Virus record (IMG/VR): IMGVR_UViG_3300030618_000012
Coordinates: 1 to 64,000 of that record
Direction: 5' to 3' (one strand)
Source of the DNA: a virus
Length of the DNA stretch: 64,000 nucleotides
The notes under the pieces are model-generated. The model saw nothing but the letters and a program-made list of their open reading frames with translations. It was not told the DNA's origin and ran no database searches. A program made the translations under genes and the position numbers. This document shows positions 21-60,493 of this stretch, piece by piece (the stretch's first letter is position 1; each line of letters starts with the position of its first letter).

Positions 21-2162
21 TTAACCCTTTTCCTGATTCGTGACGCTATTCACAGCGTTTTGCATATGGTACTGCATGCGGTCGTCGATCGCTTTCGCGA
101 GTGTTTTTGCGTCCATTCCCGCACCGCTGATATAGAAATTCATCGTTGGCGGCGTTGCCATGACCCCGCCGACACGCTGCGCGGTGAGTGATGTCGAGCC
201 GTTCGATCCGTCGATAATCTGCTTCTTGTACGTTTCCATCGCCGCGAGCCCGCGCTGCGCGACGAGAAGCTGATTCTTGAAATCGGCGATCTGTATTTGC
301 GACAGGCCGATCGGATTCTGAAGGCGCGAGTTCGCCTGGTTCGCGCTATTCAGATAGCCCGCTTCGAGGTTATCGACGGTGTATTGGACGTCGCCTTTAC
401 CGATACCGCCTTGCTTCAACTGCTGCACGGGAACGCCCAGCGCGCCCGCGATCGCGTTCTGTACCTGTGTGAGCATGAGTGTGTCGCGGTTCTGGCCGAT
501 ACCCGAACTCGAACCGCCGTAGTGCCCGGCGACTTTCGCTTGATAGTTAGGGTCGGAATTGCCGTTGTAATAGCCAAGTCCCTTCGACACATCGCCGCCA
601 GCACGCTTCAGGCTTTCCGCGTAGATGCGGGCGCCAACCATGATGTTCGCGCCCGGGTCCATTACGTCGGAGCCGCCGCCATAGGCTTTCCAGTTGCCCT
701 TCGTTACCTGCATAAGACCGCCCGCGCCGGTCGACGAATACTGACCGTTTCGACCGTGCGATTCAGTCTGCATGATCGCATAGAGCATTTGCGGATCGAG
801 CCCGTACGCCGCTGCGCCCGCTGCAATTTGCGCGCTGTACTGGCTATTTTTCCAGTCGCCGTTACCTCCGCCGCTCGTCGACATGTTGGACGGACCAGAC
901 GAGCCAGAGGCGCCCTTGACGCCCCCCGCCTGCCCGATGTTACCCGCCCATGCCGCCCACGCCTGGTGAATGTCCACGGCCTGTGAGAACGACGCTACGG
1001 ACGCCGCGAACAGGTTCATTGCAAGCGTCGTCTGGTTGGCCGTCTGGATACCGGCCTTGTTCGACTCGTCCATCTTGTCGACGATATCGCTTGCTTTTTT
1101 CTGCTCTTTTTTCTTGTCTTCGGCCTGCTTCGTTTCAGCCTGTTTTTGAGCAGGCGACGGCGCGTCGGGAATCCAGAAGTGGCCCGGTCCAAAGTGACCA
1201 GGGCCGGTCGCGCCAGGTGTCGACGATGCGGGTTGACTGGGTACAAAGTGGCCGTTGACGATTTTCCCGGGTGTCGGCGCGTTTGGCGTCGTTACCTTGT
1301 TCATTGCGTCGACGATCTTCGTGATCCATCCAACGAACTTTTCTGCGGCGGGTAACAGGTGCTCACCGAGCGATATTTCGAGTTCGTTTATCGTTTCCTT
1401 GAACTTTCCAAGCTCGTCGTTAAATTTTGCGAGACTATCTTCTGACTGCTGGCGTTGCGTGATTTCTGTCGTCGTAAGCTGGTTGATGTCGCCGATCGCC
1501 GGTCCAAGCTTTTGAAGCGTCAAAAGCCAGTCCTGAGAGAAGCCGGTCGACTTCGCGATACCCTTCACCTGATCGGACGACTTGCCTTGAAGCGACGAAG
1601 CAATCTGGCGCATTTCGTCGTTCAGACCGGTCGGCTTATCGTACGATCCCGGATCGACGCCAAGGAACTGCTTCATTTGGAAACGCTTCATTCCCGACGG
1701 ATCGGCGAACGCGTCATTCGACATTTGCGACAGGCGCTTGACGCCTTCTAGCGCACCGTCACGGCTCACCATGCCGCCCGAGCCATTGGCGAAGGCTCGT
1801 TGGTAGTTCTCGATCCGCAAGCCCGACACACCCAGTTGCATTCCCGCCGCGCGCTGGGCGTTAAATTGCTCGCGAAGGTCCATTACCGACTTGACGCCGA
1901 TCGCGAGTGCGCCAACTGCGACGGCTGCGACGGCGAATTCGGCGCCTAGACCCTTGACGGCGGTCGCGACGGCGTTCAATCCCGGAACCATTTGATCGAG
2001 TTCCTTCGCCGCGCCGGATGCGAACTCTTTAAGCCCCTTACCGGCCTTCGACCCCGATTTTTCTACACCGTCCATCTTCGTCTGTAGCTTCTCAAGACGA
2101 GAAATACTGTCTTTTAGCTCGACGGTGTACTGAAGTACGAACTTGTCAAGATCGTCGGCCAT
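21..2162 (-). CDS. Tail tape measure protein with lytic transglycosylase domain
   Basis: A 713-residue protein. Residues 1-60 are charged and coiled-coil-like (LEKLQTKMDGVEKSGSK). A hydrophobic stretch near 75-95 (FAVAAVAVGALAIGV) is typical of tape measures, which set tail length and are ejected into the host envelope. Around residues 445-545 there is an SLT-type soluble lytic transglycosylase domain (LYAIMQTESHG with the likely catalytic Glu near 467, then GAGGLMQV and GYYNGN), which would open peptidoglycan during DNA entry. The middle is rich in Gly, Ser and Pro. The gene follows the chaperone candidate by 10 bases, the normal order. The length is modest for a tape measure, suggesting a fairly short tail. 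The role is well supported; enzymatic activity is inferred from the motif. Confidence 0.9.
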   Translation of the reverse strand: MADDLDKFVLQYTVELKDSISRLEKLQTKMDGVEKSGSKAGKGLKEFASGAAKELDQMVPGLNAVATAVKGLGAEFAVAAVAVGALAIGVKSVMDLREQFNAQRAAGMQLGVSGLRIENYQRAFANGSGGMVSRDGALEGVKRLSQMSNDAFADPSGMKRFQMKQFLGVDPGSYDKPTGLNDEMRQIASSLQGKSSDQVKGIAKSTGFSQDWLLTLQKLGPAIGDINQLTTTEITQRQQSEDSLAKFNDELGKFKETINELEISLGEHLLPAAEKFVGWITKIVDAMNKVTTPNAPTPGKIVNGHFVPSQPASSTPGATGPGHFGPGHFWIPDAPSPAQKQAETKQAEDKKKEQKKASDIVDKMDESNKAGIQTANQTTLAMNLFAASVASFSQAVDIHQAWAAWAGNIGQAGGVKGASGSSGPSNMSTSGGGNGDWKNSQYSAQIAAGAAAYGLDPQMLYAIMQTESHGRNGQYSSTGAGGLMQVTKGNWKAYGGGSDVMDPGANIMVGARIYAESLKRAGGDVSKGLGYYNGNSDPNYQAKVAGHYGGSSSGIGQNRDTLMLTQVQNAIAGALGVPVQQLKQGGIGKGDVQYTVDNLEAGYLNSANQANSRLQNPIGLSQIQIADFKNQLLVAQRGLAAMETYKKQIIDGSNGSTSLTAQRVGGVMATPPTMNFYISGAGMDAKTLAKAIDDRMQYHMQNAVNSVTNQEKG

Positions 2163-27312: not shown

Positions 27313-27508
27313 TAAAGCGCCGACGACCGAAGTCGTACCCGTACTCGCGAATCACGCGGTCGACGGCGATCGCGGCGTGAACCTTCGCTTTATCGCCGTC
27401 GGTGAAAGCGCAGCATCCGGCGAAATGCATGTTCGCATGTCGAGCTTCGAAGCGCTGTCGCTCGCGGCTGAAATCGTGCTGAAGGTTGCGCGAGCGAAAG
27501 TGTTCTAA
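27278..27508 (+). CDS. Unknown 76-residue protein
   Basis: AGAAAGGATGGATT lies before the ATG although this is inside the gene before it, so it has its own strong ribosome site. Has VNLRFIAVGESAASGEMHVR and a helical end. Not recognised. Confidence 0.65.
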   Translation: MKATQKFYARPDKAPTTEVVPVLANHAVDGDRGVNLRFIAVGESAASGEMHVRMSSFEALSLAAEIVLKVARAKVF

Positions 27509-27888
27509 TGCAACGCGCCTTTACGCTAGATGGCTGGGGTAATGGCCCGCTCTTCGCACCTGTCGTGAAGCAAAGACCGCTCGCACGCCCGAAAGGTCTT
27601 CAGGGTACGGTTAGAAGGCGTCAGGAGAGGGGGCGTACGCCTCGCTGGGCCGATCGGAAGGCAATGGCGGCAATCTACCGTCAAGCGCGCCTGTTGACCC
27701 GTCTAACGGGCGAATTATGGGTCGTTGACCATATCGTTCCACTGTTCGGAAAGTACAACGGCGCCCATATCGTGAACGGCTTGCATTGGGAAGGGAACAT
27801 GCGGGTCGTTCATTGGCGTGAAAACGCACTCAAGGGGAATTTTGAATGGCCCGATATGCCGGTTAAACAGTTAGAGTTTTTACTCTAA
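27508..27888 (+). CDS. HNH endonuclease-like protein
   Basis: 126 residues. WVVDHIVPLFGKYNGAHIVN then GLHWEGNMRVVHWRENALKG fits the HNH pattern: DH, then GLH, N and a late N/K as metal and phosphate ligands. The front is basic (RRRQERGRTPRWADRKAMAA). It may be a free-standing homing nuclease or a phage packaging or recombination nuclease; there is no DNA-binding repeat. The TAA stop is formed by the CTCTAA arm of the terminator hairpin. Confidence 0.7.
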   Translation: MQRAFTLDGWGNGPLFAPVVKQRPLARPKGLQGTVRRRQERGRTPRWADRKAMAAIYRQARLLTRLTGELWVVDHIVPLFGKYNGAHIVNGLHWEGNMRVVHWRENALKGNFEWPDMPVKQLEFLL

Positions 27889-27897: not shown

Positions 27898-27926
27898 TTG
27901 ACGTCGAGAAAGGTCGAGAATACTAT
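27898..27926 (+). promoter_or_regulatory. TCGA-spacer promoter of the outer-membrane protein gene
   Basis: TTGACG, 17 bases, TACTAT, the best sigma70 match among the cassettes. The spacer is TCGAGAAAGGTCGA plus GAA. Confidence 0.75.
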
Positions 27927-27979
27927 TCGTCTAACGGTTCGCAACGTGCGTTCCGATCCACAGAAAGGAATAGAAAGAA

Positions 27980-28648
27980 ATGAAAAAGATCGCTTTCGCC
28001 GTTGCAGTCGCCTTCGCTTCGATCAATGCCCACGCAGACGACTGGATGCCGCGCATTCAGGTCGGTTCCGGCTATCAGTTCTCTAAGGACATGGGCGATG
28101 GAACCTGGATTCAGCAAGGCGCATTCAACAATCACGAGCAGACAAACGGCGCGGCGTTATCGATTGGACTCACGGGTCGTATCTGGACTAGCGGTCCATG
28201 GTCGGTCGACTATCACCTTGACTATGTGTATTACGGCCAGCAGTCGGCCAGTGTCGACGGCGTTCCCGACAACCAGTACAACGCGCAAACCCATCGCATT
28301 GTCGGATATCAGGGTGAACGCCTGAGCCCGTTTAACGGTCAAGGCCACGTTCAAGGTATTCCGCTCACGCTCGATATCGGCTACACGTACAACGGATGGC
28401 GCGTATCGGCTGAAGGCGGCGCTTGGGAGTACTGGAATACGTGGCACGAGTCGCTGTATGATCTGTCGAACCAATGGGTCGACCTTTCTCACGTCACCAA
28501 GCCGCAGACTGGATTCGTCGTTGGCGCTCGCGTCGAGCATGGCCCGCTGTCGCTGTCGTACCGGTACTACCAAGTCAAAGAACAGTGGAATCCGCAACCG
28601 GGACTTGTGACAGGTACTCAAATGCTCATGCTACAGTACAAGTTCTAA
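27980..28648 (+). CDS. Phage-encoded outer-membrane beta-barrel protein
   Basis: 222 residues with a Sec signal peptide (MKKIAFAVAVAFASINAHA, cut before DDW). The mature part alternates residues as in transmembrane strands (YHLDYVYYGQQ, LTLDIGYTYNGWRVSAEG, GARVEHGPLSLSYRYYQVK) and ends MLMLQYKF, with the terminal Phe that the BAM machinery recognises. It has its own promoter cassette, so it may be made separately from its neighbours. Similar phage proteins act in superinfection exclusion or change host surface properties. Whether it masks this phage's receptor is unknown. Structure call is strong, role is inference. Confidence 0.85.
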   Translation: MKKIAFAVAVAFASINAHADDWMPRIQVGSGYQFSKDMGDGTWIQQGAFNNHEQTNGAALSIGLTGRIWTSGPWSVDYHLDYVYYGQQSASVDGVPDNQYNAQTHRIVGYQGERLSPFNGQGHVQGIPLTLDIGYTYNGWRVSAEGGAWEYWNTWHESLYDLSNQWVDLSHVTKPQTGFVVGARVEHGPLSLSYRYYQVKEQWNPQPGLVTGTQMLMLQYKF

Positions 28649-28669: not shown

Positions 28670-28879
28670 ATGCCAGAAAGAAAACTTTTGTCGATCTTTG
28701 TCGAGTGGCGCGATGAAAAGGGCGATCGCGATTCGGTCACGTACTACGCCGAAACGCTTGGGGATTCACGCGCCAGGCTTCGTGCTGCGCAACGGGTCGA
28801 GATTTGTCGATCGTCTCAGTTCGTGATCACCGCGTATCGTTTCGAACATAGCGACGGTTCGGTAACCAACGCTATTTAG
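28670..28879 (+). CDS. Unknown 69-residue protein
   Basis: TAAGGA 9 bases before the ATG. Starts MPERKLLSIFVEWRDEKGDR; small beta-alpha type (VTYYAETLGDSRARLRAAQR). The TAG stop lies in the TTAGAG arm of the next terminator. Shares the outer-membrane gene's transcript. Confidence 0.65.
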   Translation: MPERKLLSIFVEWRDEKGDRDSVTYYAETLGDSRARLRAAQRVEICRSSQFVITAYRFEHSDGSVTNAI

Positions 28880-28897
28880 AGTCTTTCCTCTAATTTT
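28876..28897 (+). terminator. TTAGAG/CTCTAA terminator
   Basis: TTAGAG, 6-base loop, CTCTAA and TTTT. The TAG stop of the gene before it is in the first arm. Confidence 0.75.
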
Positions 28898-37715: not shown

Positions 37716-37745
37716 GTGACAAGCGTCGACCGCATTCGATATGAT
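37716..37745 (+). promoter_or_regulatory. TCGA-spacer promoter
   Basis: GTGACAA, 17 bases, TATGAT, spacer with TCGACCGCATTCGA. A GTCGACCGCA / TGCGGTCGAC inverted repeat covers the core (37726-37761). Confidence 0.7.
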
Positions 37746-49875: not shown

Positions 49876-50259
49876 ATGAAAAAGTTCACCCTCTCAGAAG
49901 TGCTAGTAATCGTTATGTTGTTCGCGGCTGTAATGGTCGTCGCGCGCCCGACACAGGCCCATACCGTTTGCGGACCCTACGCATGCCAGCCCGCGCCGGT
50001 GTTCGAGCCGCACGTTCTCGCCGATTATGAGCAGTCGGTCGAAGGGCATCGCCAGCGCATGACCCTGACCGATTTCGCGTGCAACGGGCGCGGTCGCGAA
50101 GCGGTGTTTGTCGACGGAAACCCCAACCATTTCATGCGCGGTTGCTGGTCGAATGGGCCACAGAACATGATCGAGATTGCATGGCCCAATGGCAACGTCG
50201 CTGAAATCCCGTATGGCGAACTGGTTAGCACGCCTTACGGTGAGAAGGTCGGTTTCTGA
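49876..50259 (+). CDS. Secreted protein with signal peptide
   Basis: 127 residues after AGAAAGGAATAGATC. A signal peptide (MKKFTLSEVLVIVMLFAAVM then VVARPTQA, cut before HTV). The mature part has four Cys (CGPYAC, FACNG, RGCW) that could form disulfides in the periplasm and an IEIAWPNGNVAEIPYGEL beta hairpin. No family recognised. The tiny membrane proteins that follow suggest an envelope-directed operon. Confidence 0.7.
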   Translation: MKKFTLSEVLVIVMLFAAVMVVARPTQAHTVCGPYACQPAPVFEPHVLADYEQSVEGHRQRMTLTDFACNGRGREAVFVDGNPNHFMRGCWSNGPQNMIEIAWPNGNVAEIPYGELVSTPYGEKVGF

Positions 50260-50376
50260 ATGGACTTCCTTCACGTTCTCGCCTTTACCGCTGGCGTGTT
50301 GCTCGTAAGCAGGTTCACGGCCGCGCCCGTGTTCGTCGGTATCGTTCTACTGTGCTACGCGGGCGGGTTTATCTGA
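50260..50376 (+). CDS. 38-residue membrane peptide
   Basis: MDFLHVLAFTAGVLLVSRFT, then APVFVGIVLLCYAGGFI. ATG is adjacent to the stop before it. Almost wholly hydrophobic. First of three tiny membrane proteins in a row. Confidence 0.55.
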   Translation: MDFLHVLAFTAGVLLVSRFTAAPVFVGIVLLCYAGGFI

Positions 50377-50377
50377 T

Positions 50378-50518
50378 ATGCGTCGACGCTACCGACCGCC
50401 GTCTGTGTTCGATTGCCTGTTGCTGGTTGGCGGCGTACTACTGATCATCGGCCATAACGTACTGATCGGCCTTGTGCTGATCCTGATTTCTATGCAGGAA
50501 TTTTTCGAGGGAATTTAA
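50378..50518 (+). CDS. 46-residue membrane peptide
   Basis: Basic front MRRRYRPPSVFDC then LLLVGGVLLIIGHNVLIGLV LILIS, one or two helices. ATG 1 base after the previous stop. The internal motif GGVLLIIGHNVLIG recalls GGCVLVSCDHPIMGV in the next gene, so these may be tandem duplicates. Confidence 0.55.
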   Translation: MRRRYRPPSVFDCLLLVGGVLLIIGHNVLIGLVLILISMQEFFEGI

Positions 50519-50521
50519 CCT

Positions 50522-50623
50522 ATGTCGGTTATCGTTTTCATCGGCGGTTGCGTGCTCGTCTCGTGCGATCATCCCATCATGGGCGTACTGCTGATCCTGT
50601 GTGCGTTTGGAGTGTTCTCGTGA
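50522..50623 (+). CDS. 33-residue membrane peptide
   Basis: MSVIVFIGGCVLVSCDHPIM then GVLLILCAFGVFS. The stop overlaps the next gene start (GTGA), supporting translation. Similar in plan to the 46-residue peptide before it. Confidence 0.55.
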   Translation: MSVIVFIGGCVLVSCDHPIMGVLLILCAFGVFS

Positions 50624-50850
50624 AAATTATCGCCACGATCCGCTATCACGCGGACAACGACCCGGACGAAACACCGTTCTCGAACCCTGTCGACGCGAAT
50701 CGCCATGGTGATCGGCTGGCGATCGTCAAGAAAATTCGCGCGCATATGGCAAATGTTTGGGTCTTCGGCGCCGAGCAGCATGTTTACGAACTGACGAATA
50801 ATGACTGGATCGAAATCGTCTCGATCGTGCAGCGAGAAACACCAACGTAA
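50620..50850 (+). CDS. Unknown 76-residue protein
   Basis: GTG start in a GTGA overlap (MKIIATIRYHADNDPDETPF). KKIRAHMANVWVFGAEQHVY follows. Soluble alpha/beta. Not recognised. Confidence 0.6.
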   Translation: MKIIATIRYHADNDPDETPFSNPVDANRHGDRLAIVKKIRAHMANVWVFGAEQHVYELTNNDWIEIVSIVQRETPT

Positions 50851-50866
50851 CTCGACAAGTGTCGCT

Positions 50867-50895
50867 TTACACGTTACGCCGGATTAGTTTACAAT
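50867..50895 (+). promoter_or_regulatory. Sigma70-like promoter
   Basis: TTACAC, 17 bases, TACAAT. A CTCGACAAGTGTCGC dyad (50851-50865) lies directly upstream of the -35 instead of in the spacer. Confidence 0.6.
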
Positions 50896-50925
50896 TCGAC
50901 CCAATGTAATCTATTGGGGTTGATC

Positions 50926-51336
50926 ATGATCGACGAGCAAAAGGCGCGCAAGCTCGAAGCGCTCGAAGAAATTCGACGCATGCGTGAAGAGAACAGAAAG
51001 AAGGATGCCGAAGAACGTCGATCAAACCTGATCAAGAAAGCCAAAGAACGCGACCAGGCCATTCGTGACCGTCACGACCGAAACATAGAAGGTAACCGCC
51101 GTCGACGCGGAGCGATTGGCGTATTCTGGACTAGCAGGGGTATTACCAAGCTTCACCCTTACTCGACGCGGGCCATGATCGTGCGATGGATGCGCGAGCA
51201 CCTTGCCGAAGGGCAATCGATCGATATCGACGAGCTTCACAAGAAGTGCTCGCCCTTCCTGTACGGCGCCAAGATTCGACAGCACCTGGTTCGCCTCGAA
51301 GAGTTCGGCCATATCGAGTACGTATTTAAAACGTAA
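50926..51336 (+). CDS. Coiled-coil protein with C-terminal winged helix
   Basis: 136 residues; TTGGGG lies 8 bases before the ATG. Residues 1-55 are a charged coiled coil (KLEALEEIRRMREENRKKDA). The end, AMIVRWMREHLAEGQSIDID then KIRQHLVRLEEFGHIEYVF, looks like a winged helix. A plausible transcription regulator with its own promoter. Confidence 0.65.
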   Translation: MIDEQKARKLEALEEIRRMREENRKKDAEERRSNLIKKAKERDQAIRDRHDRNIEGNRRRRGAIGVFWTSRGITKLHPYSTRAMIVRWMREHLAEGQSIDIDELHKKCSPFLYGAKIRQHLVRLEEFGHIEYVFKT

Positions 51337-51345
51337 GGAATCCTT

Positions 51346-51687
51346 ATGAGAATCAAGACTCTCACGATTGCAGAAGCCAAGGTCGCTCGTGAGTCGTGGC
51401 GCCGTACGTTCGCCCTGTTTCCTGTCAGGGTTGCCGATGGGGAATGGCGCTGGCTTGAGTTCGTCGAGCGTAGAGAACTGTCGACGGTATCGAGATATGT
51501 AAGAACCTTTACGGTTCAGCATCGCGCGCCCGGCGCTGTCGATTTTTACCCGCCCTACCCTTGGCTCGTCGGAGACGGTCGTAACCGTATTTGCAATCAG
51601 GATTTTGAAGTTGAACAGCGCCGCTCCAACCGAGACCGACCTGAATTCCCCAAATCAGAAATCATAAAGGATCATCGTGCAAGCTAA
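51346..51687 (+). CDS. Unknown 113-residue basic protein
   Basis: TAAGGAATCCTT before the ATG. TFALFPVRVADGEWRWLEFV and ELSTVSRYVRTFTVQHR suggest a small beta domain. It overlaps the phosphatase gene by 11 bases. Confidence 0.65.
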   Translation: MRIKTLTIAEAKVARESWRRTFALFPVRVADGEWRWLEFVERRELSTVSRYVRTFTVQHRAPGAVDFYPPYPWLVGDGRNRICNQDFEVEQRRSNRDRPEFPKSEIIKDHRAS

Positions 51688-52255
51688 TGACCGACCGCTT
51701 TACATCTTCGATCTTGACGGGACATTGGCCCTGATCGATCACCGACGACCGCTTGTCGAGGCGCCGTATATTTTCGTCGGTGACGCCGCGAATACGCACT
51801 CGATCCATGACCCGAATCACCCGCGCAAGTACAAGACGATCGACGGGATGGTGTATCAGCAAGACCCCAATTTCAAGCCGGATTGGTCCGCGTTCTATGA
51901 CGCGTGCCACCTGGACGTGCCGAACATGCCGGTCGTGCGCACATTCAACCAGCTTTACACGATCGGCGCCGAACTCATGATCTGGTCGGGTCGCGAGGAT
52001 AGCGTTCAGGATAAGTCGATTCAATGGCTGTCGCGTGTCCTGAACATTCACGGCCATATGCTCGCGCAAATGCTCAGGATGCGCCCAACCGGCGACTACA
52101 CGCCCGACGAGCAGCTTAAGCGCAAATGGCTCAACCAGCTTCAGCCGTCGCAGCGTCAACGCCTGACCGCCGTTTTCGACGATCGAGACAAGGTCGTAAA
52201 GATGTGGCGCGGCGAAGGCGTTACGTGCTTTCAGGTGGCGCCGGGAGAATTCTAG
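51677..52255 (+). CDS. PNKP-type polynucleotide 3'-phosphatase (HAD family)
   Basis: 192 residues from GTG. YIFDLDGTLALIDHRRPLV has the DxDGT catalytic motif; ELMIWSGREDSVQDKSIQWL is motif II; GDYTPDEQLKRKWLNQL has the Lys; AVFDDRDKVVKMWRGEGVTC is motif IV. This is the T4 Pnkp phosphatase-domain layout without the kinase half. In T4 the enzyme repairs tRNAs cut by host defence nucleases such as PrrC, so an anti-defence or DNA-end repair role is plausible. Confidence 0.82.
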   Translation: MQANDRPLYIFDLDGTLALIDHRRPLVEAPYIFVGDAANTHSIHDPNHPRKYKTIDGMVYQQDPNFKPDWSAFYDACHLDVPNMPVVRTFNQLYTIGAELMIWSGREDSVQDKSIQWLSRVLNIHGHMLAQMLRMRPTGDYTPDEQLKRKWLNQLQPSQRQRLTAVFDDRDKVVKMWRGEGVTCFQVAPGEF

Positions 52256-52310
52256 TCATAGCACGAAATAATATCGATCATCAATTTTAACATTACTACC
52301 AGGATAAATA

Positions 52311-52532
52311 ATGTTCTCACTACTAATCACAACCCTTAACGCAACGACGACCAACGGCAATCGCAAGTCTCCGCCGCGCCTGATCCCGGTAGGCTCGCAC
52401 ACCACATCGTTTATGTCGGAAGAGTTACGAGAAGCAGCGATTACTGCGATCGACAAGTACAACGCCGATCGCTACAGCGAGGCTGTTGCGCATATCGTCG
52501 GCCATATCTCGTACATGTACGTGCGCCTGTAA
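52311..52532 (+). CDS. Unknown 73-residue protein
   Basis: CAGGATAAATA before the ATG. Front MFSLLITTLNATTTNGNRKS, then FMSEELREAAITAIDKYNAD, helical. Not recognised. Confidence 0.6.
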   Translation: MFSLLITTLNATTTNGNRKSPPRLIPVGSHTTSFMSEELREAAITAIDKYNADRYSEAVAHIVGHISYMYVRL

Positions 52533-52565
52533 ATCGTCGCGAATCGTAACAATCAAGGAATCCTC

Positions 52566-53636
52566 ATGAATCAACCAATCAAGCGCGAAATGTCCGGTCG
52601 TATCGTCGTGATTAACATCGACGGCTGTATCAGTGACGATCGCTGGCGCCGGGCTCGCGTACCGGAAGGTGCCAATCAACCCGAACACTTCGCGCACTAT
52701 CACGCTGGCGCAAGCGACGATCCACCGTTGCATTTCGGTTCGGCCATTCTCATGAATCACATCGCTAACGGCGATTTCATCGTTTTCGCGACCGGTCGCT
52801 ATGCGAAAGAGGCGGAATCGACCGCCGCATGGATTAGCCGGAATTTCCGTATCGAGCCGGTTACCGACTTTTCCATCCTCATGCGCGCCGACGAAGACCA
52901 ACGCCCGGTCGTCGAAGTGAAGCGAGAGTTTGCCGCATACCTGAATAATTCGTTCTGCCAACAGAAGGGAATGAAAGTCGTCGCGGCATACGACAACCGT
53001 CGGGACGTTGTTGAAGTCTATCGCGAAGCCGGATTCGAATCGACCATCCTGAACGAGAACGGTGAGTTCGTCCCGTATGAAGGCGACGGCGACGACCAGA
53101 AGGCGTCGAGCGATCAACCGCTGGTTCCGACCGGCCTGCACGTACCATCGATTCAGACCGTTCGGAACGTACCGTTGCCTACCGAAATCAGAATAAACGA
53201 CTTGGTGAACGTTTCAACAATGAACACGAGCGGCGCGGAGAACAGTGTTGCGCGCGACGGGTTCGAAAAGAATATTGCCGAACTCGTCGCGTCGATCGGT
53301 TCAATAGGCTCTCTCGGCGTCGCGCTCGACGCGGGCGTTATGAAGGATGTCGGGATTCCATCGGCGCTCCCACTCGCGGAAAAAGTCGACTATAGCAACC
53401 GGAAGCACTCGCACTATTTCAAGGACGTTCGACACCTTGATTACGTCGACGTCTACCGCGTACTGCAACTGTTCAACGTCACGGACAACGCAATCGGACA
53501 CGCGATCAAGAAACTTCTTGTCGCCGGTTGTCGCGGCTCGAAGCCCAAAAACAGGGATATCTCCGAGGCAATCGACTCTTTGGAGCGCTGGCTCGAACTG
53601 AACGCCGAAGACTTTTTCAACCAGAACGCGACATAG
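52566..53636 (+). CDS. HAD-like protein without the nucleophile, plus a C-terminal helical domain
   Basis: 356 residues. Residues 10-180 follow the plan of HAD phosphatases (IVVINIDGCISDDRWRRARV, FIVFATGRYAKEAESTAAWI, VVAAYDNRRDVVEVYREAGF). The first catalytic Asp of DxDGT is Asn (NIDGC), so phosphatase activity is doubtful. A linker leads to residues 280-352: KHSHYFKDVRHLDYVDVYRV then NAIGHAIKKLLVAGCRGSKP and EAIDSLERWLEL, like DUF3310-type phage domains. It follows an active-looking HAD gene, so the pair may have diverged by duplication. Function unknown. Confidence 0.65.
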   Translation: MNQPIKREMSGRIVVINIDGCISDDRWRRARVPEGANQPEHFAHYHAGASDDPPLHFGSAILMNHIANGDFIVFATGRYAKEAESTAAWISRNFRIEPVTDFSILMRADEDQRPVVEVKREFAAYLNNSFCQQKGMKVVAAYDNRRDVVEVYREAGFESTILNENGEFVPYEGDGDDQKASSDQPLVPTGLHVPSIQTVRNVPLPTEIRINDLVNVSTMNTSGAENSVARDGFEKNIAELVASIGSIGSLGVALDAGVMKDVGIPSALPLAEKVDYSNRKHSHYFKDVRHLDYVDVYRVLQLFNVTDNAIGHAIKKLLVAGCRGSKPKNRDISEAIDSLERWLELNAEDFFNQNAT

Positions 53637-60418: not shown

Positions 60419-60493
60419 GTCGCGTTCATCTAGCGGTTAGGATCACAGGGTTTCATCCTGTTAACACGAGTTCGAATCTCGTACGCGACTCCA
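60419..60493 (+). tRNA. tRNA-Glu, anticodon UUC
   Basis: A 7-base acceptor stem (GTCGCGT / ACGCGAC), D-arm TCTAGCGGTTAGGA, anticodon arm ACAGG-GTTTCAT-CCTGT with TTC at 34-36, T-arm ACGAG-TTCGAAT-CTCGT, discriminator T and encoded CCA. AGGGCTCT (60396-60403) and AGAGCCCT (60496-60503) form an 8-base inverted repeat that would pair around the tRNA and mark it for processing. The phage coding uses GAA often, so this tRNA may raise late expression or replace a cleaved host tRNA. Confidence 0.93.

Follow-up and report, generated by a model that had tools for sequence, protein, structure and literature searches.

The gene at positions 27980-28648 (+) of the window, the 64,000-nucleotide stretch analysed here (positions 1 to 64,000 of IMG/VR record IMGVR_UViG_3300030618_000012), very probably encodes an eight-stranded outer-membrane beta-barrel of the OmpA/Ail/OmpX type, as judged from its modelled fold. 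The barrel gene is an accessory gene located in a variable slot. Sequence relationships indicate that it was probably acquired from temperate phages of Burkholderiaceae, and it looks like a conversion gene carried by a phage without recognisable lysogeny genes. The genomic context of related copies best supports a surface-modifying or superinfection-blocking role in the infected cell, and an exclusion function has about an even chance of being correct. The features of the region, all on the + strand, are as follows.

27508..27888, +, HNH-type endonuclease gene, homologue of BcepF1.008 (54%); phrog_26577, E 1.9e-37; synteny with BcepF1, Maja and Karil-mokiny-1
27871..27888, +, small hairpin TTAGAG-TTTTTA-CTCTAA overlapping the stop of the upstream gene; recurs in other cassettes, possible terminator
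27898..27926, +, sigma70-like promoter TTGACG-17 bp-TACTAT, 9/12, consensus match only
27962..27977, +, cassette leader / Shine-Dalgarno motif AGAAAGGAATAGAAAG; occurs 12 times in the window (up to 3 mismatches; expectation 0.25)
27980..28648, +, outer-membrane beta-barrel gene, 222 aa, ATG start, TAA stop
27980..28036, +, predicted signal peptide MKKIAFAVAVAFASINAHA (19 aa), assigned by inspection; pattern common to the family
28037..28645, +, mature 203-aa eight-stranded barrel (AlphaFold, Foldseek)
28670..28879, +, 69-aa ORF; no family match, and no promoter match before it on this strand
28876..28893, +, hairpin TTAGAG-TCTTTC-CTCTAA of the next cassette, where the barrel transcription unit ends

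With about 50 distinct homologous proteins, a chance ORF is untenable, and by this measure the reading frame is real. The protein begins with MKKIAFAVAVAFASINAHA followed by DDWMPR and ends in MLMLQYKF; the predicted signal peptide consists of MKK, a hydrophobic stretch and the cleavage site AHA|D, and the relatives have the same pattern. The mature part contains no Cys and 15% aromatic residues. Strand-like hydrophobic alternation was found in 15 windows against 3.5 ± 3.6 in composition shuffles (P = 0.011), which, taken alone, is modest evidence for a barrel. The C-terminal aromatic residue that serves as the BamA signal is present, and F222 is kept in at least 90% of relatives. The sequence-only reading had named a barrel of about 203 residues from a signal peptide, alternating strands and a C-terminal Phe; each of these was recovered, and the mature length is exactly 203 aa with the end LMLQYKF.

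Structure prediction, which that reading had proposed as a check, returned a barrel. The AlphaFold model reached a pLDDT of 74 and a pTM of 0.68 with 13 relatives, and a pLDDT of 80 (80.2) and a pTM of 0.74 with 29 relatives. Most of the barrel in the latter model exceeded 85, and parts of the loops were of low confidence (pLDDT about 52-70). The model comprises eight long antiparallel main strands, four outer loops of 13-25 residues each and three inner turns of 2 residues (72-73, 138-139 and 188-189).

Strands (residues, AlphaFold): 25-34, 57-71, 74-94, 116-137, 140-160, 176-187, 190-198, 212-221
Outer loops (residues, AlphaFold): L1 35-56, L2 95-115, L3 161-175, L4 199-211

Foldseek searches against the PDB matched the barrels of OmpA, Ail, OmpX, NspA, OmpW and PagL, and the best match was moderate (OmpA 9fzd, TM 0.58 of the query and 0.72 of the target, rmsd 3.9). 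Among viral models (BFVD), a Xanthomonas phage FoX1 protein annotated as hypothetical ranked first (E 1.7e-11, TM 0.71), ahead of many phage models named 'outer membrane protein beta-barrel'; the earlier statement that phages rarely encode such proteins was thus overstated. The proposed comparison with OmpW/OmpX-type families gave fold matches to both, but none in sequence profiles: in Pfam scans of 13 family members, Ail/Lom (PF06316), OmpW (PF03922) and PagL/PagP were unmatched at E<=1. The sole Pfam match among these members was OEP (E 0.021), in one member and under its cut-off. Scans of Pfam, PHROGs, NCBIfam and PADLOC yielded no family for the barrel protein. The PDB sequence search gave only sub-threshold matches to Opa, and the profile search gave unrelated proteins.

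Direct searches with the window protein recovered a weak match in Paraburkholderia phage IPK (25%) and a 35% match in a 27.6-kb integrase-bearing plasmid record of Paraburkholderia sp. SOS3, and a direct scan of viral contigs found no relative. The family was recovered only via the SOS3 match and then by iteration from family members, which gave 24 and then about 46 members in viral contigs. Members were also found in 13 of 398 Burkholderiaceae genomes, mostly in prophages, and in Paraburkholderia franconis. Temperate Paraburkholderia phages carry the family, as do lytic Xanthomonas Foxunavirus phages, the latter with ten records (FoX1, 2, 3, 5, Murka, M29). Conserved features are DGxWxQQ in L1, DxxY in L2, W155, P207 in L4 and H79 inside the barrel; the window protein shows full-length homology to the Burkholderiaceae prophage barrels, including DGxWxQQ, DxxY, W155 and P207. 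Most members have a CxC pair in L2, which the window protein lacks. Across the whole family, the loops vary more than the strands, as is usual (mean information 2.0 versus 2.6 bits), whereas the window protein and its closest relative are conserved at 66% in loops and 65% in strands, and this equality suggests a constrained outer face.

Most of the complete record (73,388 bases, 73.4 kb) shows synteny with Burkholderia phage BcepF1, and on the map of that phage the two record ends meet (window 21-2162 corresponds to BcepF1 51173-53287, and record 72395-73279 to 50240-51172); on these grounds, it was regarded as a complete, circularly permuted genome of a BcepF1-like myovirus. Its DNA polymerase shares about 57% identity with the enzymes of PB1-like Pseudomonas phages, and no phage was matched when the 20-44 kb region was compared by megablast. 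A tRNA-Glu (TTC) gene is present at window 60419-60493. The absence of an integrase, read earlier from the window, extends to the whole 73.4-kb record, in which no tyrosine integrase, resolvase/serine recombinase or HTH_3 repressor was detectable. The carrier phage is likely to be strictly lytic; this falls short of proof because the related phage Maja has been suggested by its authors to be possibly temperate without an integrase (PMC7862960).

The insertion slot is fixed by the HNH gene upstream of the barrel, which is a conserved landmark. The next annotated gene after it in BcepF1 and Karil-mokiny-1 is parB-like, and in Maja one small gene lies between the HNH gene and parB. In the record, parB is missing, and the barrel gene stands in its place. 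A search of the record for the ParB-like gene and the HflC-like lipoprotein of BcepF1, both shared with Maja, recovered neither, despite the mostly syntenic genome. BcepF1 and 13 related contigs, of which several are partial, gave no barrel in a profile search (E<=10); the search itself works, since this profile matched prophage and phage records elsewhere. A crude screen of the relatives for a signal peptide with a C-terminal aromatic residue found no convincing substitute barrel. The 69-aa ORF downstream is probably co-transcribed with the barrel; no relative of it occurred near other barrels in the fetched loci, and it was therefore not seen as a co-inherited partner.

The closest relatives of the window protein are L081 (63%), L082 (59%) and L083 (52%), with which it was joined in the tree at 100/100 support. 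L081 and L082 lie in prophages with phage tail and lysis genes, L082 also with an integrase and tRNA-Ser, and L083 is about 2 kb from a tmRNA, as in an island remnant. Since these nearest relatives belong to prophages or islands, a temperate pool is the most likely source from which the window phage acquired the gene, and the contrast with lysogenic conversion drawn in the sequence-only reading was misleading.

The barrel gene plausibly has its own promoter, as suggested by a consensus match, and belongs to one of about nine similar cassettes, each composed of a hairpin TTAGAG...CTCTAA, a promoter and the leader AGAAAGGAAYAGAAA. The barrel ATG lies 18 bases past the start of the leader motif. 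Promoter-like matches in the region were as numerous as in shuffled sequence (12 versus 11.7); 6 of the 12 sit 50-90 bases ahead of a leader motif, a placement that is not random. The promoter had been described as the gene's own and the strongest of the cassettes: the site itself was found, but its score is shared by several other cassettes and exceeded by that at 37716 (10/12). The leader copies, all on one strand, start at window 23975, 26455, 27962, 28961, 30575, 37775, 39431, 39783, 41388, 48333, 49861 and 60516, and the cassette promoter resembles GTCGA-n-TCGATAnnATTCG. The exact cassette patterns were absent from BcepF1, and the cassette could be a phage-specific regulatory unit.

The contexts of related copies carry most of the functional argument. 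Many temperate copies occupy a moron position between lysis and tail genes, in the order regulator-like protein, barrel and Acyl_transf_3, and the last of these corresponds in PHROGs to an O-acetyltransferase / O-antigen acetylase. The acyltransferase also follows the barrel at the genomic loci L117, L119 and L121, and L117 has a conversion-type context with an integrase and tRNA-Ser. A second arrangement is an early operon of a small protein, a Cro/C1-type HTH protein, the barrel, an AlpA-like protein and a primase/helicase, in which the barrel start overlaps the HTH stop. Foxunavirus copies lie among small genes downstream of the primase in a non-structural stretch; published work describes these phages as strictly lytic and derived from integrase-bearing ancestors, and suggests LPS as their receptor (PMC10892653). 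Other phage positions of the barrel were seen at L037 and L068. The theme that recurs across these gene orders is surface modification, with expression that is early or accessory, rather than a part in the virion or in lysis. The window copy has neither an acyltransferase nor a regulator partner; it has a promoter-like site and lies in a variable slot, while its phage shows no integrase, resolvase or HTH_3 repressor.

Several further observations were made at these loci. Acyl_transf_3 stands beside the barrel in many phages and prophages of Burkholderiaceae (L041, L042, L061, L053, L117, L119 and L121), forming a two-gene surface-modification module. The small regulator-like protein that directly precedes the barrel in many temperate copies (L041:6755-7054 and relatives) is related to phrog_20491, is labelled 'transcriptional regulator' in the SOS3 record and may control the module in the lysogen. 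At L062:8634-9959, a gene with a 2OG-Fe(II) oxygenase domain directly follows the barrel, in the slot held by the acyltransferase in other phages. The 79-kb contig IMGVR_UViG_3300037852_000046 contains two copies of the early operon (L057 and L067), each with one barrel and 40 kb apart, which represent either two tandem prophages or a joined assembly.

The best explanation, which we consider evenly balanced between right and wrong, is that a barrel derived from temperate phages masks a surface receptor and thereby reduces adsorption of competing phages. A surface-modifying role is supported because related copies lie in conversion-type cassettes and in early regulatory and replication operons. 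Expressed from a promoter of its own among the small genes of the genome, the barrel would be exported with loss of the signal peptide after AHA and would fold in the outer membrane of the host as eight strands closed by a polar interior, with four sizeable loops outside. By binding or masking a surface receptor, either LPS or a protein associated with it, these loops would most likely lower the adsorption of competing phages to the infected cell, and perhaps also that of the phage's progeny. Here, we infer membrane insertion, receptor masking and the benefit to the phage. The earlier proposal of a surface change or a block to reinfection was thereby retained as the best-supported reading, with its element of early expression inferred for the window phage from gene position only. 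The argument is one of guilt by association, and context of this kind would not separate exclusion from other surface effects. Tentatively, the uncatalogued family may be a portable receptor-masking shield traded between temperate and strictly lytic phages, with constrained outer loops that recognise one conserved host surface target; as part of this same tentative reading, it would serve temperate phages as a conversion module with O-antigen acetylases, and lytic phages in competitor exclusion or progeny sparing within a single infection. A virion or lysis role is disfavoured, with no structural or lysis neighbours in the window and varied non-structural positions elsewhere.

Other roles on the cell surface were weighed against receptor masking. 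Envelope effects such as surface adhesion, predator or serum resistance, vesiculation or membrane stabilisation have been proposed for Lom/Ail/OmpX-like proteins, and in a lytic phage a general change of this kind would support a long infection. The closest folds (OmpA, Ail, OmpX and NspA) and the lysogenic-conversion context of relatives agree with it, but a benefit to the lysogen should not persist in phages that kill, and both the lytic Foxunavirus phages and the window phage carry the barrel; we consider this rather unlikely. Phage T5 Llp acts on FhuA in a way that spares released virions, and a late receptor block on the host outer membrane could likewise prevent virions from being wasted on debris or vesicles. 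The receptor-masking and family evidence is the same as for exclusion, and the promoter and 5' leader would permit strong or late expression; however, one family branch lies between early regulators and the primase, an early position, and the window barrel is in a small-gene region away from lysis genes, which leaves such progeny protection unlikely. Absence from all relatives searched, as a single gene in a variable slot, would suit a recently acquired passenger without a selected function in the window phage, but the frame is full-length, its promoter and leader are typical of the phage's cassettes and the strand and loop motifs are retained, so the chance is slim. Slimmer still is that of an LPS-modifying enzyme of the PagL/PagP/OMPLA type that chemically alters the phage receptor: PagL is among the fold matches (2erv, TMt 0.55) and the acyltransferase neighbours likewise modify surface glycans, but the enzyme was rejected, as a catalytic Ser-His-acid set was not found among the 49 members, no Ser reaches 90% conservation, the conserved polar and aromatic residues (Q45, H79, Y82, D97, Y100 and W155) yield no serine-hydrolase triad, and there is no Pfam match.

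Most known outer-membrane barrels encoded by phages come from prophages such as lambda (Lom). A family common to temperate and lytic phages makes the question of their function testable: if the barrel is kept without any lysogen to benefit, its use must fall within infection. Our study also provides a name and a functional hypothesis for mostly 'hypothetical' proteins of Burkholderiaceae prophages and Xanthomonas phages, and this bears on the choice of such phages for biocontrol or therapy.

Compared with known systems, the barrel protein shares eight strands, short periplasmic turns and four outer loops with the OmpA transmembrane domain, Ail, OmpX and NspA, but it is only 11-17% identical to them, is phage-encoded and lacks the C-terminal peptidoglycan domain of OmpA. 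FoX1 gp57 and the M29 'outer membrane protein A' of Foxunavirus belong to the same family at low identity: FoX1 was matched at E 6e-5 from a family member, beside being the best viral fold match, and these copies keep the motifs DGxWxQQ and (S/T)W in a lytic phage. They differ in their identity to the window protein (about 20%), in being carried by an unrelated myovirus and in being mostly annotated as hypothetical. Cor of phi80/N15-type phages and T5 Llp are secreted phage proteins that act on an outer-membrane receptor, and the likeness lies in this proposed effect; both are small lipoproteins, whereas the barrel is a predicted integral barrel. Exclusion by lipoproteins has been reviewed (PMC11893012). 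Lom of phage lambda (Ail/Lom family, PF06316) is likewise a phage-encoded eight-stranded OmpX-type barrel and an accessory gene, and lom is dispensable for lambda plaques (PMC10695390). In contrast to Lom, with which it shares no detectable similarity in sequence (Ail/Lom unmatched in Pfam at E<=1), the barrel protein is longer, has larger loops and is carried by a phage without a detectable integrase.
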